From Bolinopsis microptera (Eukaryota; Ctenophora; Tentaculata; Lobata; Bolinopsidae): 64,000 bases of DNA. Shown piece by piece: positions 14,325 through 64,000 of this stretch (positions are counted from its first letter, which is position 1; each line of letters begins with the position of its first letter). The stretch covers positions 1,488,001 through 1,552,000 of the forward strand of contig NC_087077.1 in assembly GCF_026151205.1 (NCBI RefSeq). The letters are read 5' to 3'. The translations under genes were made by a program, and so were the position numbers. The notes below the pieces were generated by a model, which ran no database searches, was not told the origin of the DNA, and saw nothing but the letters and a program-made list of their open reading frames with translations.

Positions 14325-14600
14325 AATATAGAAATATTTACAAGGAGATGAATGGACTGAAAATAAATGTCTCTAGCACTATTCAAAAAATAAATTCACG
14401 GTCCACCTTTTCAAGTGTGTTCAATAATCATGACTATATCTGCCATGACACGTGACCACAACTCTAGGTGAACAACACAGGAGTTGTGGTCACGTGACAC
14501 AGGGATTCGCTCATTTTAAACGGCGATTAGTAATACTCATCACATAATTGCTCAATGTGGCGAGGAAATTGACAGCGCCTTACCCCGATCTGAGTAACAA
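13400..14600. other. 3' flank of the 9570 gene and intergenic AT-rich DNA
   Basis: It contains a TTAATTAA-rich stretch (about 13600-13680), a candidate AATAAA polyadenylation signal (13794-13799) for the upstream gene, a short ATAGATTTCT repeat (about 14265-14325) and an E-box-bearing inverted repeat (14449-14496). No coding exon is supported. Confidence 0.5.
14449..14496. promoter_or_regulatory. Inverted repeat with an E-box in each arm
   Basis: The left arm CACGTGACCACAACTC (14449-14464) and right arm GAGTTGTGGTCACGTG (14481-14496) are perfect reverse complements, separated by 16 bases. Each arm carries a CACGTG. It could act as paired bHLH binding sites or form a hairpin. Nothing nearby fixes its role. 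Confidence 0.6.
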
Positions 14601-15440
14601 TTTCAGGAGAAGTGTTGAACTAATCATTTGTTTAAAATAGATGTTATAACCTGGTCCATTCCATCAGTATCACTTGTAAAGATTGTGCTATTGTTGTTAG
14701 TTGAACTGTTTTTTAATTTCAGGAGAAGTGTTGAACTAATCATTTGTTTAAAATAGATAACCTGGTCCATTCCATCAGTCTCACTTGTAAAGATTGTGCT
14801 ATTGTTGTTAGTTGAACTGTTTTTTAATTTCAGGAGAAGTGTTGAACTAATCATTTGTTTAAAATAGATAACCTGGTCCATTCCATCAGTCTCACTTGTA
14901 AAGATTGTGCTATTGTTGTTAGTTGAACTGTTTTTTAATTTCAGGAGAAGTGTTGAACTAATCATTTGTTTAAAATAGATGTTATAACCTGGTCCATTCC
15001 ATCAGTCTCACTTGTAAAGATTGTGCTATTGTTGTTAGTTGAACTGTTTTTTAATTTCAGGAGAAGTGTTGAACTAATCATTTGTTTAAAATAGATAACC
15101 TGGTCCATTCCATCAGTCTCACTTGTAAAGATTGTGCTATTGTTGTTAGTTGAACTGTTTTTTAATTTCAGGAGAAGTGTTGAACTAATCATTTGTTTAA
15201 AATAGATAACCTGGTCCATTCCATCAGTCTCACTTGTAAAGATTGTGCTATTGTTGTTAGTTGAACTGTTTTTTAATTTCAGGAGAAGTGTTGAACTAAT
15301 CATTTGTTTAAAATAGATGTTATAACCTGGTCCATTCCATCAGTCTCACTTGTAAAGATTGTGCTATTGTTGTTAGTTGAACTGTTTTTTAATTTCAGGA
15401 GAAGTGTTGAACTAATCATTTGTTTAAAATAGATGTTATA
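14601..15440. repeat. 338-bp higher-order tandem repeat (116+111+111)
   Basis: Units start TTTCAGGAGAAGTG at 14601, 14717, 14828, 14939, 15055 and so on, giving a repeating 116, 111, 111 bp pattern. The longer unit has an extra GTTAT after AAATAGAT. Two and a half copies of the 338-bp trimer are present. The end of each unit (GCTATTGTTGTTAGTTGAAC) is almost identical to the monomer of the adjoining 30-bp array. Confidence 0.9.
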
Positions 15441-15507
15441 ACCTGGTCCATTCCATCAGTCTCACTTGTAAAGATTGTGCTCACTTGTTCTATTGTTATA
15501 TATATAT

Positions 15508-17310
15508 ATGTGCTATTGTTGTTAGTTGAACTGTTTTTTGTGCTAATGTTGTTAGTTGAACTGTTTGTTGTGGTATTGTTGTTAGTTGAACTGTTTGTTG
15601 TGCTATTGTTGTTAGTTGAACTGTTTGTTGTGGTATTATTGTTAGTTGAACTGTTTGTTGTGCTATTGTTGTTAGTTGAACTGTTAGTTGTGCTATTGTT
15701 GTTAGTTCAACTGTTAGTTGTGCTATTGTTGTTAGTTGAACTGTTAGTTGTGCTATTGTTGCTAGTTGAACTGTTTGTTGTGGTATTGTTGTTAGTTGAA
15801 CTGTTTGTTGTGCTATTGTTGTTAGTTGAACTGTTAGTTGTGCTATTGTTGTTAGTTGAACTGTTTGTTGTGCTATTGTTGTTAGTTGAACTGTTTGTTG
15901 TGCTATTGTTGTTAGTTCAACTGTTTGTTGTGGTATTGTTGTTAGTTGAACTGTTTGTTGTGGTATTGTTGTTAGTTGAACTGTTAGTTGTGCTATTGTT
16001 GTTAGTTGAACTGTTTGTTGTGGTATTGTTGTTAGTTGAACTGTTTGTTGTGCTATTGTTGTTAGTTGAACTGTTTGTTGTGCTATTGTTGTTAGTTGAA
16101 CTGTTTGTTGTGGTATTGTTGTTAGTTGAACTGTTTGTTGTGGTATTGTTGTTAGTTGAACTGTTTGTTGTGGTATTGTTGTTAGTTGAACTGTTTGTTG
16201 TGGTATTGTTGTTAGTTGAACTGTTTGTTGTGCTATTGTTGTTAGTTGAACTGTTTGTTGTGCTATTGTTGTTAGTTGAACTGTTTGTTGTGCTATTGTT
16301 GTTAGTTGAACTGTTTGTTGTGCTATTATTGTTAGTTGAACTGTTTGTTGTGCTATTGTTGTTAGTTGAACTGTTAGTTGTGCTATTGTTGTTAGTTGAA
16401 CTGTTTGTTGTGCTATTGTTGTTAGTTGAACTGTTAGTTGTTGTATTGTTGTTAGTTGAACTGTTTGTTGTGCTATTGTTGTTAGTTGAACTGTTTGTTG
16501 TGCTATTGTTGTTAGTTGAACTGTTAGTTGTGCTATTGTTGCTAGTTGAACTGTTTGTTGTGGTATTGTTGTTAGTTGAACTGTTTGTTGTGCTATTGTT
16601 GTTAGTTGAACTGTTAGTTGTGCTATTGTTGTTAGTTGAACTGTTTGTTGTGCTATTGTTGTTAGTTGAACTGTTTGTTGTGCTATTGTTGTTAGTTCAA
16701 CTGTTTGTTGTGGTATTGTTGTTAGTTGAACTGTTTGTTGTGGTATTGTTGTTAGTTGAACTGTTAGTTGTGCTATTGTTGTTAGTTGAACTGTTTGTTG
16801 TGGTATTGTTGTTAGTTGAACTGTTTGTTGTGCTATTGTTGTTAGTTGAACTGTTTGTTGTGGTATTGTTGTTAGTTGAACTGTTTGTTGTGGTATTGTT
16901 GTTAGTTGAACTGTTTGTTGTGGTATTGTTGTTAGTTGAACTGTTTGTTGTGGTATTGTTGTTAGTTGAACTGTTTGTTGTGGTATTGTTGTTAGTTGAA
17001 CTGTTTGTTGTGCTATTGTTGTTAGTTGAACTGTTTGTTGTGCTATTGTTGTTAGTTGAACTGTTTGTTGTGCTATTGTTGTTAGTTGAACTGTTTGTTG
17101 TGCTATTATTGTTAGTTGAACTGTTTGTTGTGCTATTGTTGTTAGTTGAACTGTTAGTTGTGCTATTGTTGTTAGTTGAACTGTTTGTTGTGCTATTGTT
17201 GTTAGTTGAACTGTTAGTTGTTGTATTGTTGTTAGTTGAACTGTTTGTTGTGCTATTGTTGTTAGTTGAACTGTTTGTTGTGCTATTGTTGTTAGTTGAA
17301 CTGTTTTTTA
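15508..17310. repeat. 30-bp minisatellite, about 60 copies
   Basis: The monomer is TGCTATTGTTGTTAGTTGAA followed by CTGTTTGTTG, with recurrent single-base variants (GGTATT, GCTAGTT, GTTCAAC, ATTATT, TTGTATT). Because 30 is divisible by 3, long reading frames run through it on both strands; these are artefacts of the repeat. The block 15721-16500 recurs almost exactly at 16501-17280, a 26-monomer (780-bp) duplication. Confidence 0.95.
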
Positions 17311-25055: not shown

Positions 25056-28000
25056 ATGGAGTTGGTGGATAACAAGACGGACTTGTTATTTACCGGATCA
25101 GGACCTGCTCCAACTGGTATCCCAGGATTGGACTATTTTATTGGAGCTCTTTTAGTCGTCTTCTCACTTGTCATCATCTCAGGTAATGACTATTTAAAAC
25201 AATAAATATTACTAACATTTTAGTAGTTTAAATTCAAAGCAATATTTAAGTTGTGGTCACGATCAAGGACTTTGGTGTAATTTGTGGTCTGCCGAACTTT
25301 CACATATTGTGCTTGGTTAACTTCACTTACCTTGGGCACATCTTCAGAATCTTTTAAAATCAAGATAATTAATTCACGCGAGAACATTAACGTTAAATTT
25401 TAAATAGCATCGAAAGAAGAGTATTCACCGTGCCGTAGCCCGTCTGTCTATACACAAACAAATAGTCGACATGAGCCCGAGAAACTGGATCAGACCGGAG
25501 TGTCCCAAATTCTACACTCATTCTGGCTTAGTTCATTATCCATTCGGCACTATAGTTATAGAACATCCACACATCCTCCCAAACTTCACCATCTCCTCAT
25601 TGCTAACTCCGGCATCCACCATTAAGGATGCCATACCCCAGGGGCAGGCAAAGCATTTTCATGCTATCCTCACTCCCCAGCCTCTCTGAATAATAAAAAA
25701 TAAAACGATGGTCGACGCGATCCAATTTACCCTACTAATTTTCTTTGGTTAATAACAAAAACTTGGTCCTCAGCCATCAACGCATTGATGATCAATGATC
25801 ATAGATAGAACGGACGAACGATCTCCACTGTAAACATCGTTATTCCTGCAATAATATAAATATCAGTAATATAAATACAGTGCATTATTAACGTAATTAT
25901 TATATCATATATTATAACGAAATAAAAGTCGAGTTGTTTTGAGAAACTACCATAAGATTAAGACATGTTCGTCATCCCCCCAGTCTGTTTAGACTTCCCG
26001 CCTCGTCTTCAAAGCATAGGCTACCCATTACTACCCATATTCTCACTCTGGATGAAGACTTCAGTCCTTTCACCCTGCTGAAGCTTCTAATGAAGAAGCT
26101 TCCGATTGAAGATTCGGCGGATCGAGAAAGGCTAGAGCCGTACAGTAAAACAGCTTCGTGTCTTCAAGAAACAGCAAATGGACCGTAATTAATGTTTGAT
26201 GCAATTGAAGGTTTAAAAATAATAAATAATTGGAGGTATGCCAAATTGCATGCTAAATTGTAATTAATATTATTTTCTTAAGACAACTCGTCATTTTAAA
26301 GTTTGTACGTTTCTTGGTACGAATTTGTAACTTGTAATGTATTCGGTTTCCGCTCACATCATATTAAACAAGAGTGGTCACTGACCACTCTGAGTGGTGT
26401 CCAATGGTCCAATCCTAATCATTGTTAAAATAATATTTTTATTTTTGTCTTATTTCATCAAAGTTTTCCACAGGAAATGCCCTAGTCATCCAAGTTATAC
26501 GTTATCAGACAAGAAAGAGTGTTTGTGACTTTATATTCGCGCAGATAAGCTTCGTTCACATTTTTGGTGGTTTCTCTTCTTTTATTTCTGCCTTCATTCT
26601 TCTGTCGGGTATGTCATTTGTTTACAAGAGTTTAATTTTAATAAAATACTGTAATTAATTTCAATATGATACACCATGACCGAACTCCTGTAAATGACCC
26701 ATACTTCACGTTTTCAGATTGTAAATGGTATCCGATTAACCCATTAAATGAACTGCTTTTCCCGAAGTTACCGTTAATTGTTAAGTCAGCACCCCATCTG
26801 AACTGATCACCCCGCAGGACGGACCATGTTTGACTACAGACAAGTAGATAACATAGTGTGTTGGCTAGGCGGGGCGGTGTGGCATCTTGTGGTCCTGTTA
26901 ACTCCAATATTCCTCAGGACGGACCATGTTTGACTACAGACAAGTAGATAACATAGTGTGTTGGCTAGGTGGGGCGGTGTGGCATCTTGTGGTCCTGTTA
27001 ACTCCAATGTTCCTCAGGACGGACCATGTTTGACTACAGACAAGTAGATAACATAGTGTGTTGGCTAGGTGGGGCGGTGTGGCATCTTGTGGTCCTGTTA
27101 ACTCCAATGTTCCTCAGGACGGACCATGTTTGACTACAGACAAGTAGATAACATAGTGTGTTGGCTAGGTGGGGTGGTGTGGCATCTTGTTGTCTTGTTA
27201 ACTCCAATGTTCCGCAGGACGGACCATGTTTGACTACAGACAAGTAGATAACATAGTGTGTTGGCTAGGTGGGGTGGTGTGGTATCTTGTGGTCCTGCTA
27301 ACTCCAATGTTCCTCAGGACGGACCATGTTTGACTACAGACAAGTAGATAACATAGTGTGTTGGCTAGGTGGGGTGGTGTGGCATCTTGTGGTCCTGTTA
27401 ACTCCAATGTTCCTCAGGACGGACCATGTTTGACTACAGACAAGTAGATAACATAGTGTGTTGGCTAGGTGGGGTGGTGTGGCATCTTGTGATCCTGTTA
27501 ACTCCAATGTTCCTCAGGACGGACCATGTTTGACTACAGACAAGTAGATAACATAGTGTGTTGGCTAGGTGGGGTGGTGTGGCATCTTGTAGTCCTGTTA
27601 ACTCCAATGTTCCTCAGGACGGACCATGTTTGACTACAGACAAGTAGATAACATAGTGTGTTGGCTAGGTGGGGTGGTGTGGCATCTTGTGGTCCTGTTA
27701 ACTCCAATGTTCCTCAGGACGGACCATGTTTGACTACAGACAAGTAGATAACATAGTGTGTTGGCTAGGTGGGGTGGTGTGGCATCTTGTGGTCCTGTTA
27801 ACTCCAATGTTCCACAGGACGGACCATGTTTGACTACAGACAAGTAGATAACATAGTGTGTTGGTTAGGTGGGGTGGTGTGGCATCTTGTGGTCTTGTTA
27901 ACTCCAATGTTCCTCAGGACGGACCATGTTTGACTACAGACAAGTAGATAACATAGTGTGTTGGCTAGGTGGGGTGGTGTGGCATCTTGTGGTCCTGTTA

Positions 28001-31000
28001 ACTCCAATGTTCCTCAGGACGGACCATGTTTGACTACAGACAAGTAGATAACATAGTGTGTTGGCTAGGTGGGGCGGTGTGGCATCTTGTGGTCCTGTTA
28101 ACTCCAATGTTCCTCAGGACGGACCATGTTTGACTACAGACAAGTAGATAACATAGTGTGTTGGCTAGGTGGGGTGGTGTGGCATCTTGTGGTCCTGTTA
28201 ACTCCAATGTTCCTCAGGACGGACCATGTTTGACTACAGACAAGTAGATAACATAGTGTGTTGGCTAGGTGGGGCGGTGTGGCATCTTGTGGTCCTGTTA
28301 ACTCCAATGTTCCTCAGAACGGACCATGTTTGACTACAGACAAGTAGATAACATAGTGTGTTGGCTAGGTGGGGCGGTGTGGCATTTTGTGGTCTTGTTA
28401 ACTCCAATGTTCCTCAGGACGGACCATGTTTGACTACAGACAAGTAGATAACATAGTGTGTTGGCTAGGTGGGGTGGTGTGACATCTTGTGGTCTTGTTA
28501 ACTCCAATGTTCCTCAGGACGGACCATGTTTGACTACAGACAAGTAGATAACATAGTGTGTTGGCTAGGTGGGGTGGTGTGGCATCTTGTGGTCCTGTTA
28601 ACTCCAATGTTCCTCAGGACGGACCATGTTTGACTACAGACAAGTAGATAACATAGTGTGTTGGCTAGGTGGGGTGGTGTGGCATCTTGTGGTCCTGCTA
28701 ACTCCAATGTTCCTCAGGACGGACCATGTTCGACTACAGACAAGTAGATAACATAGTGTGTTGGCTAGGTGGGGCGGTGTGGCATCTTGTGGTCTTGTTA
28801 ACTCCAATGTTCCTCAGGACGGACCATGTTTGACTACAGACAAGTAGATAACATAGTGTGTTGGCTAGGTGGGGTGGTGTGGCATCTTGTGGTCCTGTTA
28901 ACTCCAATGTTCCTCAGGACGGACCATGTTTGACTACAGACAAGTAGATAACATAGTGTGTTGGCTAGGTGGGGTGGTGTGGCATCTTGTGGTCCTGTTA
29001 ACTCCAATGTTCCTCAGGACGGACCATGTTTGACTACAGACAAGTAGATAACATAGTGTGTTGGCTAGGTGGGGTGGTGTGGTATCTTGTGGTCCTGTTA
29101 ACTCCAATGTTCCTCAGGACAGACCATGTTTGACTACAGACAAGTAGATAACATAGTGTGTTGGCTAGGTGGGGTGGTGTGGTCTTGTTAACTCCAATGT
29201 TCCTCAGGACGGACCATTTTCGACTACAGACAAGTAGACAACATAGTGTGTTGGCTAGGTGGGGCGGTGTGGCATTTTCTGGTCTTGTTAACTCCAATGT
29301 TCCTCAGGACGGACCATGTTTGACTACAGACAAGTAGATAACATAGTGTGTTGGCTAGGTGGGGTGGTGTGGCATCTTGTGGTCCTGTTAACTCCAATGT
29401 TCCTCAGGACGGACCATGTTTGACTACAGACAAGTAGATAACATAGTGTGTTGGCTAGGTGGGGCGGTGTGGCATCTTGTGGTCCTGTTAACTCCAATGT
29501 TCCTCAGGACGGACCATGTTTGACTACAGACAAGTAGATAACATAGTGTGTTGGCTAGGTGGGGCGGTGTGGCATCTTGTGGTCCTGCTAACTCCAATGT
29601 TCCTCAGGACGGACCATGTTTGACTACAGACAAGTAGATAACATAGTGTGTTGGCTAGGTGGGGTGGTGTGGCATCCTGTGGTCCTGTTAACTCCAATGT
29701 TCCTCAGGACGGACCATGTTTGACTACAGACAAGTAGATAACATAGTGTGTTGGCTAGGCGGGGCGGTGTGGCATCTTGTAGTCTTGTTAACTCCAATGT
29801 TCCTCAGGACGGACCATGTTTGACTACAGACAAGTAGATAACATAGTGTGTTGGCTAGGTGGAGCGGTGTGGCATCTTGTGGTCTTGTTAACTCCAATGT
29901 TCCTCAGGACGGACCATGTTTGACTACAGACAAGTAGATAACATAGTGTGTTGGCTAGGTGGGGCGGTGTGGCATCTTGTGGTCCTGCTAACTCCAATGT
30001 TCCTCAGGACGGACCATGTTTGACTACAGACAAGTAGATAACATAGTGTGTTGGCTAGGTGGGGAGGTGTGGCATCTTGTAGTCTTGTTAACTCCAATGT
30101 TCCTCAGGACGGACCATGTTTGACTACAGACAAGTAGATAACATAGTGTGTTGGCTAGGTGGGGCGGTGTGGCATCTTGTGGTCCTGCTAACTCCAATGT
30201 TCCTCAGGACGGACCATGTTTGACTACAGACAAGTAGATAACATAGTGTGTTGGCTAGGTGGGGCGGTGTGGCATCTTGTGGTCCTGCTAACTCCAATGT
30301 TCCTCAGGACGGACCATGTTTGACTACAGACAAGTAGATAACATAGTGTGTTGGCTAGGTGGGGCGGTGTGGCATCTTGTGGTCCTGTTAACTCCAATGT
30401 TCCTCAGGACGGACCATGTTTGACTACAGACAAGTAGATAACATAGTGTGTTGGCTAGGTGGGGCGGTGTGGCACCTTGTAGTCTTGTTAACTCCAATGT
30501 TCCTCAGGACGGACCATGTTTGACTACAGACAAGTAGATAACATAGTGTGTTGGCTAGGTGGGGTGGTGTGGCATCTTGTAGTCTTGTTAACTCCAATGT
30601 TCCTCAGGACGGACCATGTTTGACTACAGACAAGTAGATAACATAGTGTGTTGGCTAGGTGGGGCGGTGTGGCATCTTGTAGTCTTGTTAACTCCAATGT
30701 TCCTCAGGACGGACCATGTTTGACTACAGACAAGTAGATAACATAGTGTGTTGGCTAGGTGGGGTGGTGTGGCATCTTGTGGTCCTGCTAACTCCAATGT
30801 TCCTCAGGACGGACCATGTTTGACTACAGACAAGTAGATAACATAGTGTGTTGGCTAGGTGGGGTGGTGTGGCATCTTGTGGTCCTGCTAACTCCAATGT
30901 TCCTCAGGACGGACCATGTTTGACTACAGACAAGTAGATAACATAGTGTGTTGGCTAGGTGGGGCGGTGTGGCATCTTGTGGTCCTGCTAACTCCAATGT

Positions 31001-34000
31001 TCCTCAGGACAGACCATGTTTGACTACAGACAAGTAGATAACATAGTGTGTTGGCTAGGTGGGGTGGTGTGGCATCTTGTGGTCCTGCTAACTCCAATGT
31101 TCCTCAGGACAGACCATGTTTGACTACAGACAAGTAGATAACATAGTGTGTTGGCTAGGTGGGGTGGTGTGGCATCTTGTGGTCCTGTTAACTCCAATGT
31201 TCCACAGGACGGACCATGTTTGACTACAGACAAGTAGATAACATAGTGTGTTGGCTAGGTGGGGCGGTGTGGCATCTTGTGGTCTTGTTAACTCCAATGT
31301 TCCTCAGGACGGACCATGTTTGACTACAGACAAGTAGATAACATAGTGTGTTGGCTAGGTGGGGTGGTGTGGCATCTTGTGGTCCTGTTAACTCCAATGT
31401 TCCTCAGGACGGACCATGTTTGACTACAGACAAGTAGATAACATAGTGTGTTGGCTAGGTGGGGTGGTGTGGCATCTTGTGGTCCTGCTAACTCCAATGT
31501 TCCTCAGGACGGACCATGTTTGACTACAGACAAGTAGATAACATAGTGTGTTGGCTAGGTGGGGTGGTGTGGCATCTTGTGGTCCTGCTAACTCCAATGT
31601 TCCTCAGGACGGACCATGTTTGACTACAGACAAGTAGATAACATAGTGTGTTGGCTAGGTGGGGCGGTGTGGTATCTTGTGGTCCTGTTAACTCCAATGT
31701 TCCTCAGGACGGACCATGTTTGACTACAGACAAGTAGATAACATAGTGTGTTGGCTAGGTGGGGCGGTGTGGCATCTTGTGGTCCTGCTAACTCCAATGT
31801 TCCTCAGGACGGACCATGTTTGACTACAGACAAGTAGATAACATAGTGTGTTGGCTAGGTGGGGTGGTGTGGCATCTTGTGGTCCTGCTAACTCCAATGT
31901 TCCTCAGGACGGACCATGTTTGACTACAGAGAAGTAGATAACATAGTGTGTTGGCTAGGTGGGGTGGTGTGACATCTTGTGGTCCTGTTAACTCCAATGT
32001 TCCTCAGGACGGACCATGTTTGACTACAGACAAGTAGATAACATAGTGTGTTGGCTAGGTGGGGTGGTGTGACATCTTGTGGTCTTGTTAACTCCAATGT
32101 TCCTCAGGACGGACCATGTTTGACTACAGATAAGTAGATAACATAGTGTGTTGGCTAGGTGGGGTGGTGTGACATCTTGTGGTCTTGTTAACTCCAATGT
32201 TCCTCAGGACGGACCATGTTTGACTACAGACAAGTAGATAACATAGTATGTTGGCTAGGTGGGGTGGTGTGGCATCTTGTGGTCCTGTTAACTCCCATGT
32301 TCCTCAGGACGGACCATGTTTGACTACAGACAAGTAGATAACATAGTATGTTGGCTAGGTGGGGCGGTGTGGCATCTTGTGGTCCTGTTAACTCCAATGT
32401 TCCTCAGGACGGACCATGTTTGACTACAGACAAGTAGATAACATAGTGTGTTGGCTAGGTGGGGCGGTGTGGCATCTTGTGGTCCTGTTAACTCCAATGT
32501 TCCTCAGGACGGACCATGTTTGACTACAGACAAGTAGATAACATAGTGTGTTGGCTAGGTGGGGTGGTGTGGCATCTTGTGGTCTTGTTAACTCCCATGT
32601 TCCTCAGGACGGACCATGTTCGACTACAGACAAGTAGATAACATAGTGTGTTGGCTAGGTGGGGCGGTGTGGCATCTTGTGGTCCTGTTAACTCCAATGT
32701 TCCACAGGACGGACCATGTTTGACTACAGACAAGTAGATAACATAGTGTGTTGGCTAGGTGGGGCGGTGTGGCATCTTGTGGTCCTGCTAACTCCAATGT
32801 TCCTCAGGACGGACCATGTTTGACTACAGACAAGTAGATAACATAGTGTGTTGGCTAGGTGGGGCGGTGTGGCATCTTGTGGTCTTGTTAACTCCAATGT
32901 TCCTCAGGACGGACCATGTTTGACTACAGACAAGTAGATAACATAGTGTGTTGGCTAGGTGGGGCGGTGTGGCATCTTGTGGTCCTGCTAACTCCAATGT
33001 TCCTCAGGACGGACCATGTTTGACTACAGACAAGTAGATAACATAGTGTGTTGGCTAGGTGGGGTGGTGTGGCATCTTGTGGTCCTGTTAACTCCAATGT
33101 TCCTCAGGACGGACCATGTTTGACTACAGACAAGTAGATAACATAGTGTGTTGGCTAGGTGGGGCGGTGTGGCATCTTGTAGTCCTGTTAACTCCAATGT
33201 TCCTCAGGACGGACCATGTTTGACTACAGACAAGTAGATAACATAGTGTGTTGGCTAGGCGGGGCGGTGTGGCATCTTGTGGTCCTGTTAACTCCAATGT
33301 TCCTCAGGACGGACCATGTTTGACTACAGACAAGTAGATAACATAGTGTGTTGGCTAGGTGGGGCGGTGTGGCATCTTGTGGTCCTGTTAACTCCAATGT
33401 TCCACAGGACAGACCATGTTTGACTACAGACAAGTAGATAACATAGTGTGTTGGCTAGGTGGGGCGGTGTGGCATCTTGTGGTCCTGTTAACTCCAATGT
33501 TCCTCAGGACGGACCATGTTTGACTACAGACAAGTAGATAACATAGTGTGTTGGCTAGGTGGGGCGGTGTGGCATCTTGTGGTCCTGTTAACTCCAATGT
33601 TCCTCAGGACGGACCATGTTTGACTACAGACAAGTAGATAACATAGTATGTTGGCTAGGTGGGGCGGTGTGGCATCTTGTGGTCCTGTTAACTCCAATGT
33701 TCCTCAGGACGGACCATGTTTGACTACAGACAAGTAGATAACATAGTGTGTTGGCTAGGTGGGGCGGTGTGGCATCTTGTGGTCCTGTTAACTCCAATGT
33801 TCCTCAGGACGGACCATGTTTGACTACAGACAAGTAGATAACATAGTGTGTTGGCTAGGTGGGGTGGTGTGGCATCTTGTGGTCCTATTAACTCCAATGT
33901 TCCTCTGTCTTGTCGTTACTGGCAGGTTCATCATTCACTTCGCTCCTCTAAGGTAACCGATCACCCCCATTTGTTTTAATAGTTACCCTCCAAGTTCAAC

Positions 34001-37000
34001 TGATTTTACAATTGATAAGAGTTTTTATCCTGAATTAAGATTAGGCTCCCGTCTCCTACTCTCTTAGTTAAAGGTACTGTCTTGCAGGTACGAAAGTATC
34101 GTCAACATGACATACGTTGTCTCTGGTTCCAGTCTCTCCTGGGCGTGGAGTTCTGCTGTCCTAGCTCCCTTTATCGTTAGAGGTATGCTATACTTTACAA
34201 TTAACTGGGTTCGACAAAAGTTGCTTTCTAAAAATAATCGGACCCTTCAATATTTCCTGCTCTGAGGATGGTACGACAAAAAACTTTCAGTTTTAATATA
34301 ATCGAGAAGTGAATATGGTAGGCTGTTCGATGCTATTTGCGGTGCGAGTTACCGTCTGGTTAAGAATCAATTATTTTGTTAAATATATGTAGCTAAACCG
34401 TTAAACTTACCATATAAGGAAGCGTGATATAATTAGAATTAATCCCGCGTGTTAAACGGATATGTCTCTTAATTAAGTAATGACAGATGTTGGCAACTTT
34501 TCTCGTTCCAGTACAGTTCCAGTACAGGGTTCCGGTTATATCAACATCAAGTTCTGGTTTATTTTTTGTAACTAAACAATTTTTATGATTTAACAATTTT
34601 TGTGATTAAACAATCTCTAATATTGAGCAGTCAATTTGCCGAGCTCTAAGTTTAGAAAATTGTAACAGTTCTGGTTATTAACACAATGTAAATTTGCTGG
34701 GTGGCTAGTCGGCGACATAAAGATTCGGAGTTAGAACTGATAACTTAACCTTGTCACCAGTCCAAACATAAGTATTAATAATAAATTAATTAATGATAAT
34801 TAATAAAAGTATCGATTCCAGAGGATTCAATAGGGTTAAATAAAGAACGAGTTCACGACTGTTCGCTCGAATCGTTTAAATAATATAAAAATTCAGGATT
34901 TAATATTGGTGTTGAAGAAAGCTGGGCATATCCACATTTCAAGATTCCTCCGAGCGGTGTTGAAAGGTAACGTCTACAATCTACATTTAAATTTAAAATA
35001 AATATAATTATACGTTTATCAAACTTCTTCTTTTGTTTGAGTGTTATATTTATAAATAAATATACTATAATCGTACTTCAATCATGAAATGTTAAAAACT
35101 TGGCCCCTCAGATATTTGATGATAGGCTGTTTTGCTGGACCACTCCTTTTGTTGGAACTTATTCTCATTATCCTGATCCTCTCTATACTGGTCGACTTTA
35201 AGGTCTTCACCAAGAAAAAGAAGAAACAGCCTAAGAGTTTCATACAGGCGGGGCTCAGGAAGATGCTGGCTCAGACCATGGTACCTTTACCTACCGGTAC
35301 GAGTTTACAATTACATGGGGACCCCACACTATTATATAAATAGAGATTCGGCGGAATGACTGGCTGAGCGCCGCCCAGTAATTATAAAAGCCAGAGACTT
35401 TTAGGGTGATTTAATGTTAATGCGGGGAAATGTAAATTTATTTGTAAAAGAATGAAAGTCATGTCTGATCTCAATTCCCTCCCTCACTCCGCAGTATTTG
35501 AGGGATCGGAGCAGGAGCCAGTACAGAGTGCCGGACTGAACCAGGCTTCTTTCTTTACCACTAACACTGCCACACGCTCGCAGACTTCTTATCACGACCT
35601 CGAACATAACAAGGAGATTTTCAGGTTTGTTATGATTTGTTTACTAGTTCTTCTGTTTAAAGTTTCTTCCGAAGAAATTATTGATTATTGTAATCTCGTG
35701 CTTTTAATAGAATTTCTGAAGCCAAATCTTAAACGCCGTTATGGTTTTTTTTTGCTAAAAACAAGGTTTTAAAATTATTAGTTATTACATATTAAAATAG
35801 AATTCAAGAAAAATTATTCTGAAAATGTGTAGTCACCTTTAGAAAACTTTAAAAACAATAAATATGCCAGGCGAAAGCGTAGAATCCGTAATCACTAACA
35901 TGATTTATGTTTGATTGCCGATAGCATGGTAAAGTCGAAGATTCGATTTCTGTCTGTTTTGCAAGTGCACCTTTTTACGGGAGGATGAAACAAGTTTTAT
36001 GCATTAAGACAAAAATTAATACCGGCACTAGCTAAATATAGCTAAAAGACATGGATTATATAAATATCTGCACTGCAGATTCGGACAGTAGAAAATTGAG
36101 TTTAAGAGTCAACATGACTATTCATACGTGTGAATATTAACTGAAGCTCTTATGTTCGTATATGTATCATGGGTGGGCGACAATTGACCCCCCGACAATT
36201 GACCCCCGACAATTGACCCCCCGAAAATATAATTTAATACAATTAACCCTGACCCTGACCCTGACCCTGACCCTGACCCTGACCCTGACCCTGACCCTGA
36301 CCCTGACCCTGACCCTGACCCTGACCCTGACCCTGACCCTGACCCTGACCCTGACCCTGACCCTGACCCTGACCCTGACCCTGACCCTGACCCTGACCCT
36401 GACCCTGACCCTGACCCTGACCCTGACCCTGACCCTGACCCTGACCCTGACCCTGACCCTGACCCTGACCCTGACCCTGACCCTGACCCTGACCCTGACC
36501 CTGACCCTGACCCTGACCCTGACCCTGACCCTGACCCTGACCATGACACTGACCCTGACCCTGACCCTGACCCTGACCCTGACCCTGACCCTGACCCTGA
36601 CCCTGACCCTGACCCTGACCCTGACCCTGACCCTGACCCTGACCCTGACCCTGACCCTGACCCTGACCCTGACCCTGACCCTGACCCTGACCCTGACCCT
36701 GACCCTGACCCTGACCCTGACCCTGACCCTGACCCTGACCCTGACCCAATTGTCGGGGGGTCAATTGTCGGGGGTCAATTGTCGGGGGGTCAATTGTCGG
36801 GGGGTCAATTGTCGGGGGGTCAATTGTCGCGGTACCATGTATCATGTCGTATGAATATAATTTTGACAAGGGTAATATAATTATAAAATCACCATTGGGG
36901 GTAATGATAATCTTCTGAACTACTAAATTAGTATCGGCCTATCCGGCTGATATATGATGAATGGTTCACCTTAAGATCAGAGATATTCTCTTCAGATGGA

Positions 37001-38293
37001 TGGAGGACAGTGCCCGGGTGATAGCCACCAGTACCCACAACATATTCCAATCTCGCTCCGACTCCTGCCTTTCCTGGTATGTTTTCTAGCCTCGTGCATG
37101 TTGGTGTGTTTTCGCTCTTAAGTCTTGGTGTTTTCTCTGCGAATCTTGTTTAAAAAAACCAAAATATGGTCGCTGACCGCTGTTTAAATTCATAGCACTG
37201 AGCATAAACAAGTAATAGTAATCGGATGATAATTGGAATACTCGCGGATATTAATCTACGCTGGTAAAACATATGGCGCGAGTTAAAGTTGGATATCTGC
37301 GACCTGCATAGATTCTATTTAGTCGCTCGGATAACAATTAACATGAACACCCATCTAAATTGCATTGAAATTGACTGGTTGAGGAGGCTGAAACGTTGAC
37401 AGTTGAGCGACTACTGTAGGAAATGACTTACAAGACATCGATCTATTTAAAGATAAATATAAATTTGATTTATGAAGCACTAAAATTTGATGCAATTTAA
37501 AAGTCAGCTAGACAGTGTCTAGTAGACACAGATTCTGTCGCATTTATAAATAAAATCAAAAAACTTATATTGACAAATTACAAAGACTCTTTAGTCTTAG
37601 AATCTATATGATTTCATTTTGTTTTGATCGTGTGTAAAAGCACCTCAAACTCAAAGCACCTTTGTACGTGGCTTGCTAGTCTGCCCGCTGTCATATCATT
37701 TGGGCGGAAACCCCTATAATATAATAATACGGGCTGTAACCATGGTAACAGCTACAAGGACTCCTCCTCCCAGGTCTGCTGTTAGCACCCCCGTGTCTAT
37801 ACGAGCCGGCCAGTCTGCCCAGAAGCTGCACTGCGGCAGTTTTCAGTCATCCACCCACTCGCTCAGTCACATACGGTCAGAGATAAGGTCTGTGTTTGAT
37901 AGCATGGTATCGAGGATATCCAGCCCAGGTCGGGTAACAACAGAGCTGGGAGGTACCGGAGCGAGGAGCAGGAACAAGGAGCAGCAAACCAAGATAGTAG
38001 CTCTACATCTCTCCTATAGTTTCCTTCTTACACACTTCATGGTTAGCGTCTACACGGTCTCCTGCCTGACGGATCCTCAGCTGGGTCCCTTCGACCAGTC
38101 CAGGAGAGACGGATCCCAGCTCCAGGTGTATCTAAAGGGGTGTTATTATGCTGCTGTTTTTATTAACTCTGGCATGACGCCAGTCGTTTATTGGACCTTC
38201 CATCAAAAGTACCGGCAGAGGGTCTCGTTTTATTTTTACAGGTTGAAAATTATTCTTGTTAAAATCAGGAACAGACTCTGCAGTTGCTGTTGA
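25056..38293 (+). CDS. Rhodopsin-like 7TM receptor (GPCR), 500 aa, 9 exons
   Basis: Exons are 25056-25182, 26474-26608, 33808-33952, 34088-34182, 34897-34966, 35112-35296, 35495-35624, 36996-37076 and 37759-38293. Every intron is GT-AG and the phases join into one 500-residue frame. The short N-terminus has an NKT glycosylation site. TM1 (about 28-51) contains the GN motif, TM2 is about 57-87, TM3 about 100-126 ends in GRF in place of DRY, followed by PLRYESI, TM4 is about 145-164, TM5 about 193-218 and TM6 about 401-425. TM7 (about 451-468) has NSGMTPVVY in place of NPxxY. The third intracellular loop is long (about 180 residues, Ser/Thr-rich, KKKKK start) and the tail ends in CSCC, possibly palmitoylated. 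There is no FxxCWxP in TM6 and no cysteine in loop 2, so this is a divergent orphan-like receptor. The exon 9 acceptor (AAG|G at 37758) is the weakest join. Confidence 0.85.
26818..33807. repeat. 100-bp minisatellite derived from GPCR exon 3
   Basis: Seventy tandem units run from the first GACGGACCATG (26818) to the last before the true exon (33808). All are 100 bp except one of 90 bp (29118-29207), which lacks about 10 bases. Each unit is the start of GPCR exon 3 (encoding RTMFDYRQVDNIVCW and on to LLTPMFL) followed by AG, so every junction recreates TTCCTCAG|GAC, a 3' splice site. Variation between units is mostly C/T at a few sites. The array makes up nearly all of intron 2 (26609-33807). 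The 69-89 residue minus-strand frames are artefacts. Confidence 0.95.
33808..33952 (+). CDS. GPCR exon 3: functional last copy of the array unit
   Basis: 145 bp, phase 1 in and phase 2 out. The first 95 or so bases equal the array unit (with CTATTA for the usual CTGTTA, synonymous). Where array units turn back to AG|GAC, this copy continues TTCCTC|TGTCTTGTCG through TM3 (CLVVTGRFIIHFAPL) to AAG|GTAACC. It is the only copy followed by the rest of TM3 and a usable donor, so it must be the exon that makes the receptor. Confidence 0.9.
36180..36832. repeat. Hexanucleotide (CCTGAC)n array with inverted flanks
   Basis: About 84 copies of CCTGAC (36246-36747) with one interrupted spot near 36541 (CATGACACTGA). 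The left flank has three copies of GACAATTGACCCCC; the right flank has about six copies of its reverse complement (CAATTGTCGGGGG). The whole block lies in intron 7 of the GPCR gene. Frames coding GSGS, VRVR, GQGQ and TLTL are artefacts of the hexamer. Confidence 0.9.
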
Positions 38294-40042: not shown

Positions 40043-43000
40043 TCACAGGGTTGGTCCACAACCCCTGAATGGGAGGGTATCAGCACAATGCGATCCAACC
40101 AACACATTCTTCACGTTGCACTCCTTGTGGATGCACTCGGACACGTCGAACCCGGCCACGGCGCACATCTCGTTAAAGGCGGCGGTGGCGCGGCAGGGAG
40201 AGGGGTAGGCACTGAGGTACTCCTTGCTGCAGGAGTCCTGGATACAAGTGGACATGTACCAGCCCATGTCTACTACCTGTTTGCAGGAACGGAACCCGGG
40301 ACAGTTGAAGATGTCTTTGCACATGGCAGTGGCTTGGGATCGCGAAGAGGCAGAACACTGGTACGTCTGAAATTAACAGTTTTGTTATTATGTAGTTCTC
40401 AACAGTACAGAACTGTATTTAATCTCATTATAAGAGGTAATCTGAACCTTCCTTCCTTTAAATTTCAATACTTTTGTCTCTTCTTAAAAATTGATTGCCG
40501 CCGTTATGAGTTATATCATCCACTTCCTCGAATGATTCAAGAACAATAGAAAGAGAAAAGAGAAATACATCACTTTTTTATTATTCCCATATGCCAACTG
40601 ACCTGCAAGTAACTTGGTTCACACTGTCTGTAATAGTCCAGTCTGCTATCCACCACCAACTTCAATGCCTCATCCTGTCCCAGCATGCTGCTCCTGTACG
40701 AGTTCTCTCCGTAGTTTCCTCCGCAGATTCCGCACGTAGATGTGTCCTTGTGTCCCTCCTGAAGGACCACGTGCGCTGTGGTTACTCCGTCCCAGATCAC
40801 TTTAATTTCAGGGAGGTCCGCGTGAAGATGAGTACCGTTCATTCTGAAGGTTAGCTCGTCTTCAACATACGTCCGTTCTTCGTTCTCCTTCATGACAAAG
40901 TTTTCGTGGCCCATGTTTACGTACCATCCTCTCCCAATCTGAAAAAAGATCAAAGTACTAGAAAGTAATTTAGAACGCGGTCCTTTTTGTTAATTTGCAG
41001 ATAGACATATTTTAAAATTAGTTCGGATACTTAGACATTTATTCCGATAGTAATCGACAAAACTGACTGATGATCTTGGCGAAACCGAAAATTTCCATTC
41101 CATAAAAAACCGAAACACTAGAAGTTAAGACTCGGCAAACCTCAAAGAAGACATTTTTATGATACACAGTGATGGCCTCTAGACAAGTGGCGCCGACCTG
41201 GCATCCTCCGAACCTGTTGTAAACGTACCAGTCACTGTTGTGGCAATTCCGCGCCATCAGGTACGAACATTGTCCCCTGGAGGAAAAGTAACGTTAGCAT
41301 CAAAATTACTATAAATAATAATTATCTAGCCAAGTTACCTATATTTATATAAGGGGACCAAAAACCAATTCTTTTCCAGACTACAATAATATTTCGTTCA
41401 ATGCCTTAAGGTTTGCAAAACCAATTTGAGTTAATTAAATGTGACTTAGTGCACAAAAGGACTAGTAAACCCGGTTTCAATGCCCCCTGGCACAGGGCGA
41501 AACGAGATTATTTCATTCGGTAGTTTTATTGTGTCGTAAGTAAACTTTGTCTACTACTTTAGTGCGAACATCATAATCTGAGACGGCAATAAATACTAAT
41601 AATCCCAAAATGTGTGCGCATGTGCGCGTGTAATTTCCGAACGGCTTAATCAAGAAAATGGTTAGAGTTAGGTGACTGGTTTTTTTCGGTATAGTTTTGA
41701 AAAAATTCTGACGAAGCCAATAAACAAATGTTTTTTAAATCGGCCGTTGGTAAGTGGTTAAATTGATGGTTTTGTGCCCCAAATATGATATTAAAGTGTC
41801 TCGCTTTTTATCCCCCTCTCACTGTCTCTCCCCATTTACAGCTCCCCAAATTACAGCTTTGTATATAATTAGGTAATTTACATAATCTTATCTATATCTA
41901 CTATTCAATTATTAGGAATATTCAGTCTGAGAAACGTCATCTGAAAGCCATCAAATTCTTGGAATTTCGTATTATCGTTCCTCATATTTATATTTAGAGT
42001 AATAACTAATACCTTAATTAATATTATACCGGATAGGAAGCTTTTGCAACGGAGGAAGCTTTTGCAACGGAGACAAATGCCTGAAAATGGCCCAACATGT
42101 TTCAGTTAGAGGCCATCTCATCGATCTTTTTTATTACAGAGATTATTTCTAATGACTCGCAAGAAATCCAAATATCTCTAACGCAATAAAATCTTCATAA
42201 TCACTGTTTCACTTTTGAATTGATCCATAACAAAATAGTTTAAAAATATATTTTAGAGCATTGGTTCATTCACTTAAAATGCGACAAGCGGACAAGGGCC
42301 TTTGCGTTTGGTTTGTGAAATTTATGTGTAGCTAAAAACAGATTATTATATATAATAATAATGGGACGTATTTATAAATACGTCCCATTTTTTCCGAAAT
42401 TATAAGTCTTCAAGTAAAAAAATTCATAAATAGACCTGTCTCCTCGAAAAAGAAAAAGGAGACAGGTCCAACGTGAAATACTCTCCAGAATATTTATCCA
42501 GGTCCTGACACTGACTCTTATTCTCTAGTGAAATACTCTCCAGAACACATATCCAGGTCCTGACACTGACTCTTATTCTCTAGTGAAATACTCTCCAGAA
42601 TACATATCCAGGTCCTGACACTGACTCTTATTCTCTAGTGAAATACTCTCCAGAATACATATCCAGGTCCTGACACTGACTCTTATTCTCTAGTGAAATA
42701 CTCTCCAGAATACATATCCAGGTCCTGACACTGACTCTTATTCTCTAGTGAAATACTCTCCAGAATACTTATCCAGGTCCTGACACTGACTCTTATTCTC
42801 TAGTGAAATACTCTCCAGAACACATATCCAGGTCCTGACTCTTATTCTCTAGTGAAATACTCTCCAGAATATTTATCCAGGTCCTGACACTGACTCTTAT
42901 TCTCCAGTCCTGATCTCAATGCTGGGGTGAGAGTGTCAACATTTTAAGGTTTATCAACGTCAAAAATTTGGTGTATAACAGTGCCAGCCCCTTCACTTTT

Positions 43001-46000: not shown

Positions 46001-49000
46001 TGCGGTTTGATCACTTTTGGCGGAAAAAATATTTTGAATTTTCGAAATTATTTCCTAGTCTCGAAAAAAAATGTAAGTGAAAAATTTTCAAATTTTTTCT
46101 AAAAACTACTTTTCTCCGTGTTTTAAGCTATTCCGATCTTTTTGAGCTAATAAAAAATTTTTAGAATTTTGCTAATTAGTTAATTGATAATTATCCAATT
46201 AACTTATTATCTGACGTAAAAATTGTTTGAACAAAAGTTTTTCTTCCTGATAATATAAACACACTCGATTGATCCGCAACCTTTTACGATGTTCACAACT
46301 AAAGATATTCGACAAACAAGAAAGGTGGTAAAAAGTGGTAAAGTGGCAAAAAGTGGCCTTAAGACAAGTGGAAAAGTTTGGAAAAGTTGGTCAGCCATAA
46401 AGGGCACCTAATCGGACTCAAAAACGTCAAAAATCCTCTGAAAAGTTCGTGTGTCAGCAAATCGATTTTTTCAGACGGATCTGTCTGTACTATAAGGTGT
46501 GCCTTGACTAATGAGTTATGATAGGAATGGGCGACAATATAACCTATAAATATCTGACCTTTACTCTAGGAACTTAGAACTTAAGTTAAAGAAATGTTAC
46601 AAATTTGGCTTAAGAACTGGCGGAATTCTTTCTATCGTATTTATTTACTTAATTATTTACTTAATTATTTACTTTATTTACTTAATGCTAGAGCAGAATT
46701 AGTTTATTATTTTACATAATATCTATAACAGTATATATTTAATCTACTTAAATATTCCAGTATATATACTTAAATTAATATTTATAAGAATAAGAAATGA
46801 AAAAACGGGTTACGCCAAACATAATATGTTTTAATAGATAATTCAGCATAATCTCTTCAGTGAACGCAGACAAAGCCAAAGTATTTATAAGAATGTTTTT
46901 ATTTAATCTACTTATTTATAAGTATTTATTAGTATTTGTAAGTATTTGTAAGTATTTGTAAGTATTTGTAAGTATTTATAAGTATTTATAAGTATTTATA
47001 AGTATTTATAAGTATTTATAAGTATTTGTTAGTATTTATAAGCATTTATTAGTATTTATAAGCATTTATAAGCATCTTCAACATACCCGAATGAGTAAGA
47101 CTGACTGTCGAATGTCCTGACATGACCGTTTCCAGCTACGACACAAGTTGGGAGAACAGGAGGGGTCTCCACTTTAACTTTGAACACGTTACTCTGAGCA
47201 ATCAAGTCACCACAAGTTTGAGCTTGACAGAAGTAGAGTCCTGTGGGAAATTGTATCAGTAATAGTGCAGCTTGGGAATTATCGGTTCCCTACCCGACCC
47301 TCAAGTAAAGGTCATCCTGTTTAGCTGCTAGGAGGCGTGGGATTAAACAGAGCTGAGCAGGGGCATGGCATCGTGCGATGTCTGCAGGGATTTGTATGGT
47401 TTGGTATGGACACTAGTCAGCGGTAAAAATAGAGTCCTAGTGATGCTAATATGTGAGATTATCAAGGTTTGCCCTGCAGATCTAACACCTCACTTGCCGC
47501 TCTCTCAACTTGTTGCTTTATCTCTATTACATGATATATGTCGATATTCCCGCATCAAACAGACGCGAATTCACTTTAAACAGGCGGTACATCTTTGACC
47601 CGTTTCCTACATATATCAGTAAGTACAGTAACAAGCTCCGGCCGTGTGTGACGGGCTGTTAGACGCATAGTCTAGTAGTCTTCACACTGTAACACTACAC
47701 AGTACATCATAGTCTAGTAGTCTTCACACTGTAACACTACACAGTACATGAGTACATCATTATATCTCAGGCTATGACAGTCGACCCTGAACACCCCTTA
47801 TCAGTGTTACAGATAATCTACTAAGATTTTTTCAAGATCCTGATCACTAAGTACAGTAACTAACTGGCCAGGTTGTTGGACGCATTATAGTCTAGTAGTC
47901 TTCACTGTTCACACTGTAACACTACACAGTACATTATAGTCTAGTAGTCTTCACACTGTTACACTACACACTTACACAGTACGCCTCAGGCTATGACAGT
48001 CGACCCTGAACACCCTTATCAGTGTTACAGATAATCTACCAAGGTCACTAAGATTGTTTCGATTTCTTATGTACCTTATGGCATCTTATATCGAAACATT
48101 CGCCTAATAGTTATAGGACGTTATAGGACGAATTTGTGAATAACACCGATTTTAAATCGACACAATATTTTGGAACAAATCAGTGCTCTATTTGCGGGGG
48201 TGACGTGGCTTTTGCAAGTCTGCAAAAATTTGTGAAATACAGAAACGAGGAAAAGCATAGATCACCAGTCACGAATTAGCCCGAATATTACCTCAGCGAT
48301 TTGCAGGCAAAAAGTTGACGGGTTCAAGACATTAATATGCAGTGCTCCAAAAAATAGAGGGCACTTTGTAAAGCATCGCATCTCTGTTGATTATACTAAT
48401 GGCCAATGAATCCGAAAAGATTTATAAAATGATAAGTTTTGAGTTCCTCACCGTTATCCAGAACTTGAGCAGAAGGTATGTAGAGAGTATCATGGTCAGA
48501 TACTAATACTGGGTCTTCATCCCTAAGTTCGTGGTACCAGTTCACTGTTGGCATCGGGGACCCTTTAGCGTTACACTGCAGCTCTATTGGCATTCCCATC
48601 GCCACTGTCACGTTAGTTTGCCTGGGGAAAGGAACTATGTTAGAGTCCACATCAAGAAACAGTGCAGATTGGCAGATAATCTTAGAGGAAATTTTGGATT
48701 TTTGAGGAAATTTTGTGCCCAAGAGGACATATTTAGAATACCTGACCTTTTCATAGGGCATAAGAACATTTTAAGTGTACGTGGGGTTTAGAATTAATCC
48801 GAGTTACCGGCTAAGGTGCGGTTATTAACGGATAATTAAGGGTCGGTTCAAGTTCTCTCATATTTGTCGAATGAGAAAACGAATTTCGGGTGGGATATAA
48901 ATAACCGTAAATTAAAAAGTGGGGTTGATGCCGGTGTTCAATTGAATGGCGACAATGAAACACGGAATAAATTCATTACCTGGAAGCTACCTAGTATGTT

Positions 49001-63044: not shown

Positions 63045-64000
63045 AACGCGACAACTAGCGCTGGATGGCGACAACTAGCGCTATCCAGCGCTAGTTGTCG
63101 CCATCCAGCGCTAGTTGTCGCTATCCAGCGCTGGATAACGCTGGCCAGCGCAAAATATATTTGTTCGATAATTGTCGCTATCCAGCGCTAGTTGTCGCCA
63201 TCCAGCGCTAGTTGTCGCCATCCAGCGCTGGTTGTCGCTATCCAGCGCTAGTTGTCGCTGGCTATGCGACACTGTCGCACGCGATAGTTTGCGATGGCCA
63301 GCGCTGGCTAGCGACAACTAGCGCTGGATGGCGACAACTAGCGCTGGCCAGCGCTTGTTGTCGCTATCCAGCGCTAGCCAGCGCTAGCCAGCGCTAGCCA
63401 GCGCTGGCCAGCGCTATCCAGCGCTAACCAGCGCAAAGTATCAATTTTTGATAAATTTTCGATAAATTTTCGATAATTTTCGCGACAAATAGCGCTGGAT
63501 AGCGACAACTAGCGCTGGCCAGCGCTGGCCAGCGCTAAGCGATAGCCAGCGCTGGCCAGCGCTGGCCATCGATAGCCAGCGCAACATTTTTGCGATATTA
63601 TTCGTCAGCTAGCGCTGGCCAGCGCTATCCAGCGCTATCCAGCGCTAACCAGCGCTAACCAGCGCTGGCCAGCGCTGGCCAGCGCAATGTATCAAAATCA
63701 TATAGTTATAATTGCGATATTACTCGTCAGCCAGCGCTGGCCAGCGCTGGCCATCGATAGCGGACGATAGCCAGCGCAAAATGTTTGCGATATTACTCGT
63801 CAGCTAGCGCTGGCCAGCGCAATGTATCAAAATCATATAATTGCGATATTACTCGTCAGCCAGCGCTAGCCAGCGCTGGCCATCGATAGCCAGCGCAAAA
63901 TATTACTCGTCAGCTAGCGTTGGCCAGCGCTAGCTAGCGCTAGCCAGCGCAATGCATCAAAATCATATACTTGCAATATTACTCGTCAACCACAAACCAG
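63045..64000. repeat. GC-rich palindromic repeat field (AGCGCT/CCAGCG)
   Basis: Dense copies of self-complementary words such as AGCGCTGGCCAGCGCT and CCAGCGCTGG are linked by TAGTTGTCGC, GCGACAACTAGCGC and ATATTACTCGTCAGC. Longer modules recur (GCGATATTACTCGTCAGC followed by CAGCGCAATGTATCAAAATC, three times from about 63660 onward). It runs off the right edge. Frames rich in SAG/RYPAL are artefacts. Confidence 0.9.

Follow-up and report, generated by a model that had tools for sequence, protein, structure and literature searches.

Tandem copies of the start of a receptor exon form a 100-bp minisatellite in the ctenophore Bolinopsis microptera

The third exon of a gene predicted to encode a rhodopsin-like receptor in the ctenophore Bolinopsis microptera is preceded by 70 tandem copies of its own beginning. 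The copies lie in a 64-kb window (the whole stretch of DNA that was analysed; coordinates without a locus name are positions in it) and stand in the intron in front of the exon. The array is very probably a mirage, a minisatellite that began when a segment spanning a 3' splice site was duplicated in tandem. Mirages are minisatellite-like duplications of intron-exon boundaries, reported in globin and Adh3 genes of lancelets, where they are proposed as a source of introns (PMC3087553), and also reported in the genes for troponin C and PGBD5, where aberrant mRNAs are stated not to be generated (PMC3902484). The receptor array answers to the definition of this published class, for which normal splicing is reported (PMC3087553, PMC3902484). 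The original prediction, made from the DNA sequence, held that no routine family of this kind was known; the lancelet cases in Adh3, troponin C, globin, and PGBD5 genes contradict it (PMC3087553, PMC3902484), as does a second such array in a two-pore-channel-like gene of the same genome.

Structure of the array

Tandem Repeats Finder delimits the array to 26815-33905, with a period of 100 bp, 71.0 copies, and 97% matches. An anchor-motif count finds 71 copies: 70 are intronic (26818-33807, 6990 bp, plus strand), and with the 71st the real exon 3 begins at 33808. In the anchored count, 69 of the 70 copy spacings are 100 bp; the sole 90-bp copy (29118-29207, plus strand) has an internal 10-bp deletion. 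Both counts bear out the prediction of about 70 tandem copies over 7 kb in the intron that precedes exon 3. Each unit consists of nucleotides 1-98 of exon 3 followed by an acceptor AG. The unit had been described as the first 90 or so bases of the exon with its splice acceptor; the exonic derivation and the acceptor stand, whereas the length is slightly greater.

The unit spans the intron-exon boundary, and the array adjoins the authentic boundary, which belongs to its terminal copy. Up to nucleotide 98 the real exon departs from the unit consensus at nucleotides 58 and 80; from nucleotide 99, a T, it diverges and continues as the third transmembrane segment (TM3). The left edge of the array retains a different intron end, gatcaccccgcag; the original 3' end of intron 2, ctgaactgatcaccccgcag, is positioned directly upstream of copy 1 (26798-26817, plus strand). 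The old intron flank thus survives at copy 1, and copy 71 is the real exon.

The genome-wide search for the unit that the original prediction had proposed covered 264,652,675 bases in 232 contigs. The search, using the exon as the query, returned at least 71 matches, every one of them inside C6:1514818-1521952. The reading of the array as a multi-locus satellite was rejected, as the unit was found at this single locus only. "Satellite birth", the term used in the prediction, is too strong for what is a local minisatellite.

The receptor gene and its relatives

The receptor gene is encoded on the plus strand. The coding part of exon 1 (25056-25182) extends from the ATG to the donor CTCAG/gtaatg (slashes mark splice borders), contains the N-terminus and TM1, and ends in phase 1; it was delimited by its open frame and GT border. 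Exon 2 (26474-26608, phase 1 to 1) encodes the end of TM1 and TM2, and the alignment with two relatives, L017 and L018, is gapless across its join with exon 3. The real exon 3 (33808-33952, 145 nt, phase 1 to 2) encodes TM3 according to the alignment and the frame, and exon 4 (34088-34182), assigned from its open frame and borders, encodes TM4. Exons 1-4 have GT donors, exons 2-4 have AG acceptors, the joined frame is open, and the successive intron phases are 1, 1, and 2. The prediction had given exon 3 the same phases, 1 at its entry from exon 2 and 2 at its exit. A putative exon 5 with TM5 (35126-35202, with a provisional end) and an open frame holding a putative last exon with TM6-TM7 and ending at a stop codon (37628-38293) were assigned by frame reading; the latter has no Pfam match and exhibits weak homology to the relatives.

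A protein search of the same genome found weak relatives on C6, with E-values of 7.6e-4 and up. Four of them (L017-L020) were aligned with the window receptor, two rows of the alignment being partial. Residues L43, R47, C60, W67, T74, P75, G84, R85, P92, and Y95 (window receptor numbering) are invariant in all five sequences. C60 to P75 are encoded within the repeated part of exon 3, and G84-R85 outside it. All five family members match Pfam 7tm_1 at E-values up to 1, the best being 4e-08, and in this comparison the match of the window receptor itself (0.055) is under the curated cut-off. A profile of the five proteins retrieved rhodopsin-like receptors from the PDB (155 sequences at E-values up to 1), with GPR183 as the best match at 4.1e-05, whereas the window receptor alone reached 0.02. 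By the 7tm_1 matches and the PDB profile, the family of five belongs to the rhodopsin-like (class A) G protein-coupled receptors. The window gene is predicted to encode a divergent member, called so because its own PDB and Pfam matches are weak. An earlier, partly guessed joined version of the receptor had no Pfam match. The alignment, the 7tm_1 matches of all five members, and the PDB profile agree with the predicted assignment of exon 3 to TM3. The TM3 sequence is conserved in the four relatives, whose TM3 exons adjoin no array with a period of 20 or more, which upholds the proposed origin of the repeat from coding sequence.

The position of the intron between TM2 and TM3 varies within about 50 codons across this one receptor family. 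The intron interrupts the sequence ILLSG/RTMF in the window receptor, RTFFDFYFI/DDVIC in L017, and DDIICQFTG/ITW in L018. By eye, L019 and L020 have an intron near the place of that in L018, and L019 has another within TM2. Separately, an intron at L019:2404-2915 is mostly occupied by a 22-bp array of 23.6 copies; its CACTAACATCTTCTATTAG-like unit resembles a branch point with an acceptor, without an exon. Genome-wide, 147 of 1680 candidates were scored for 7tm_1. Many of the listed matches cover the domain in one open frame, so intron-bearing receptors are not the sole pattern in the genome, and no runs of 7tm_1 at sub-kilobase spacing were found among the 147 scored candidates. In another receptor class, a glutamate-receptor piece of the genome (L023) has its best PDB match in the chain ML032222a iGluR (E 1.1e-36), a Mnemiopsis leidyi protein, and another copy (L025) is identical to it at 87 of 113 positions in a gapless comparison.

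Variation among the copies

The variation was counted in the 69 full-length intronic copies, the 90-bp copy being excluded. These comprise 37 distinct sequences. The mean pairwise difference is 2.6 per 100 nucleotides, and the mean difference from the exon is 2.7 over 98 nucleotides. Adjacent copies are closer to each other than shuffled ones, with 2.26 versus 2.61 differences, and none of 500 shuffles gave a value as low. No higher-order repeat units were seen in the array (longest repeated run 2; 2.2 in shuffles). The T at exon nucleotide 58 is found in 33 of the 69 copies, and the A at nucleotide 80 in none. Folding of one unit as single-stranded DNA is unsupported as a driver of expansion (z = +1.05).

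Within nucleotides 1-98, 12 of the 28 variant types are synonymous in the receptor frame, with 8.0 expected (P 0.052 and 0.067 in two runs). In the exon part of the array in the two-pore-channel-like gene, locus L030, 6 of 11 types are synonymous, with 2.4 expected (P 0.014). That count used the 28 of 37 anchor intervals that are exactly 66 nt long; the others, with lengths of 69 nt (five), 132 nt (three), and 67 nt (one), were left out. For both loci jointly, 18 of 39 types are synonymous where 10.4 are expected (P 0.006). The excess suggests that sequence may be exchanged between an array and the functional exon beside it.

Splice signals inside the units

Each unit can be read as CAG/51 nt/GT...TTAAC...CTCAG/. 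In the representative unit preceding the real exon (plus strand), nucleotides 1-51 (33708-33758) form a cryptic exon of phase 1-1 between CAG/ and /GT. Nucleotides 52-100 (33759-33807) form a cryptic 49-nt intron, GTGGGG...TTAACTCCAATGTTCCTCAG, composed of former TM3 codons and the AG. The AG/GT motif characteristic of intron gain by tandem duplication is present as CTAG/GTGGGG at unit nucleotides 48-57. Immediately before the real exon stands TTAACTCCAATGTTCCTCAG, in which codons that once specified LTPMFL of TM3 are followed by AG. Provided that the acceptor at 33808 is the one in use, duplicated TM3 codons probably make up the functional acceptor with its branch point and pyrimidine tract, because the sequence upstream of this acceptor formerly encoded TM3.

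The same layout could mean that the units are real 51-nt symmetric exons separated by 49-nt introns, included in variable number, each adding 17 residues to the loop before TM3. AG precedes all 71 copies, the 70 intronic copies have GT (67) or GC (3) at nucleotides 52-53, and TTAAC is located upstream of the AG. On a textbook donor matrix, the donor TAG/GTGGGG scores 2.8, as compared with 3.4-3.6 for the four donors of the gene itself and 0.2 and 1.1 for the donors of two relatives. The frame stays open when one cryptic exon is included (copies 70 and 1 were tried), and nucleotides 1-51 hold fewer variant types, 9 of the 28 (P 0.065). We nevertheless consider such a series of coding micro-exons improbable. 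With all 70 cryptic exons included, translation ends after 996 of 1357 codons, because copy 54 (32108-32207, plus strand) carries an in-frame stop, CAA to TAA at unit nucleotide 24. Descent alone would keep splice motifs in recent copies, synonymous types are present outside nucleotides 1-51 too, and the receptor would presumably suffer from a tandem insert ahead of TM3.

A second exon-boundary array and a survey of other arrays

Tandem arrays were surveyed in 18 stretches of 10 kb at arbitrary round positions (six, then twelve; 180,000 bases together). Arrays with a period of 20 or more and at least three copies occupy 11.0% of the sampled bases, so minisatellites are common in the genome. 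One of them is located in the two-pore-channel-like gene (L030:1229-3954 = C9:2701229-2703954, minus strand) and comprises about 41 copies of about 66 bp. Forty copies are intronic and directly precede the real exon, in an intron of phase 1. The main unit of 66 bp is composed of 23 nt of the intron end and 43 nt of the exon start, and all 41 matches in a genome search with the consensus are at the C9 locus. On the minus strand, an exon at 4243-4154, ending in VVNNWHIIV, precedes the array intron, after which the real exon starts at 1271; the joined exons read YYTLNFDDFFASIVTLLTLMVVNNWHIIVNAFSYSRGDWWSTYYFISWWIICVLLILNVIIALILD. Pfam Ion_trans matches the real exon at 6.6e-07 and an upstream pore exon at 2.4e-14. 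A PDB search with two joined pieces found two-pore channel 1 (2.8e-07, whole sequence). Three sites distinguish the real exon of this gene from the unit, and the differences are all synonymous.

This array resembles that of the receptor gene in having dozens of intronic copies directly before a real exon. Its unit length is divisible by three and the unit is mostly open, so that read-through could stay in frame, unlike in the receptor array. Its unit also includes the native 3' end of the intron, unlike the receptor unit, and the match at its duplication junction is 4 nt (ACTA) by eye.

Flanks were inspected by eye for four of the 22 sample arrays (L027:8577, L028, L030, and L042) and for the window arrays at 14599-15481 and 42473-42908. 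Among these, with Pfam applied to one flank frame of L028 and one of L042, the array of L030 was the sole exon-boundary array recognised. The single case is a floor and not a rate, because recognition requires homology. At L042:1-387, the unit of a 56-bp array may derive from a 5' splice site (minus strand, ATCACTCCTG/GTTAGT) of a putative coding exon, in which case the array could be a 5'-splice-site mirage. A reverse-transcriptase-like open frame, recognised by eye, lies at L028:9174-9998 in the same stretch as a 119-bp array of 31 copies.

An array of near-identical units could also be an artefact, if assembly lengthened or distorted a genuine short one. The Bolinopsis microptera assembly is reported to have been made by wtdbg and polished with pilon (PMC10232365), and the copy number may be off. 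The 37 distinct sequences, the single 90-bp copy, and the local clustering of variants speak against this explanation, as do the lack of any N in the window and the independent array of like kind at L030, and we regard it as very unlikely. That exon 3 was captured from an older satellite is hardly credible, even though the copies reach exactly to the exon border and the repeat is far longer than the exon, since the TM3 residues C, W, T-P, and G-R are common to the four relatives, G-R lies outside the unit, and the unit is found nowhere else in the genome.

Comparison with known systems

The receptor array resembles the Branchiostoma mirages of Adh3, troponin C, the globins BflGb6 and BflGb9, and PGBD5 in that tandem copies of a boundary adjoin the authentic one. 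Many units of the lancelet mirages are described as carrying splice signals, and concerted evolution within a cluster is reported (PMC3087553, PMC3902484). The BflGb6 mirage is described with six and three units of 150-160 bp in two haplotypes, as compared with the 70 intronic units of the receptor array. Reported Adh3 units measure 10-72 bp and the PGBD5 repeats 60 and 108 bp; the receptor unit measures 100 bp, 98 of them exonic, and belongs to a ctenophore. Length and somatic instability, together with normal splicing, are reported for the lancelet mirages, whereas the receptor array is known here from one assembly. No report of exon-boundary arrays in ctenophores was recognised in the open-access literature searched.

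The array also shares features with intron gain by tandem duplication. In a potato RdRp gene, an intron is reported to have arisen when a duplicated segment spanned an intron-exon border and supplied a donor located within the exon (PMC4974935). The cases discussed under the Rogers model (potato RdRp, ATP2A1, and fission yeast SPOG_01682) are described as using an exonic donor, branch point, and pyrimidine tract (PMC4974935), as the receptor array might. The 51/49-nt layout of the receptor unit could work in the same way as the cryptic exonic donor of potato RdRp. The Rogers-model cases, as reported, involve one to a few duplications and new introns supported by transcripts, whereas the receptor array has dozens of copies and is known from sequence. 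Intron gain by exon duplication is also reported to be supported in Drosophila (PMC2891723).

Other features of the window

Some further repeats occur in the window. At 36178-36829, 84 ACCCTG copies are positioned between two short period-15 arrays, each approximately the reverse complement of the other (CGACAATTGACCCCC, CAATTGTCGGGGGGT), perhaps as parts of a mobile-element-like structure. A 30-bp array of 60 copies (15509-17306) has several frames open on both strands and is adjoined by a 111-bp array (14599-15481) whose unit holds an acceptor-like TTTCAG. Several arrays at 63079-63952 contain many 10-bp palindrome-like units (AGCGCTAGCC, AGCGCTGGCC). Open frames of neighbouring genes on the minus strand encode a C8 domain (40043-40372, E 1.2e-06) and an Ig domain (48396-48770, E 1.5e-08). 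Rfam had no match in the window at gathering scores.

Discussion

We propose that the receptor array started with one duplication, of the segment that begins with the intron 2 acceptor AG and ends with nucleotide 98 of exon 3, with a junction match of at most 1 nt, as judged by eye. Unequal exchange or slippage would then have expanded the array and homogenised it locally. The mature mRNA would be normal, with exon 2 joined to the CAG before copy 71. Alternatively, exon 2 could be spliced to the CAG of an earlier copy, and the TAG/GT of that copy to the TAG/GT of copy 71, giving an identical message. Direct read-through into exon 3 from the acceptor of an earlier copy shifts the frame and meets a stop after 125 residues for all six acceptors tried (copies 70, 69, 68, 67, 66, and 1). 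The array and the functional exon may exchange sequence, in which case selection on the exon would act as a filter and leave a synonymous excess in the array.

Several points weigh against this account. Exons 1-4 of the window receptor match Pfam 7tm_4 at 0.0052 and 7tm_1 at 0.12, both under the curated cut-offs, and the exons past exon 4 are not well supported. Expression of the receptor gene and its splicing pattern are assumptions; RNA reads are reported for Bolinopsis microptera (PMC10232365). Since higher-order units are lacking, the exchange model rests only on local similarity and shared sites. Taken by itself, the receptor array has a synonymous excess short of significance at 0.05, and the test was devised after the data had been seen, with variants common to several copies counted once as types.

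The array is of a known kind, the mirage. Within the literature searched, its occurrence in this phylum is new, as are the copy number relative to the lancelet globin case, the recurrence in one genome, and the self-sufficient exon/intron layout of the unit. There is also a hint that the exon and the array exchange sequence under a filter of selection. In that literature mirages come from lancelets; the two arrays, of about 70 and 40 copies where lancelet globin has 3 and 6, add a further phylum, and two unrelated genes of one animal share the exon-boundary array structure. The origin of new introns and splice sites is a long-standing question for which few intermediates are known, and the array shows a route from coding sequence to an intron with splice signals. 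The spliceosome faces 71 near-identical acceptors, and the one in use was apparently built from former codons.

We speculate, with the odds somewhat against it, that the exon-boundary minisatellites of ctenophores reflect a genome-wide and continuing process. Short duplications of 3' splice sites would grow to dozens of copies and exchange sequence under the selection acting on the exon, and coding sequence would be turned into branch points, pyrimidine tracts, and in-frame exon/intron modules. If so, such arrays would show intron gain in progress, and likewise the turnover of intron positions, such as the differing positions among the receptor relatives.

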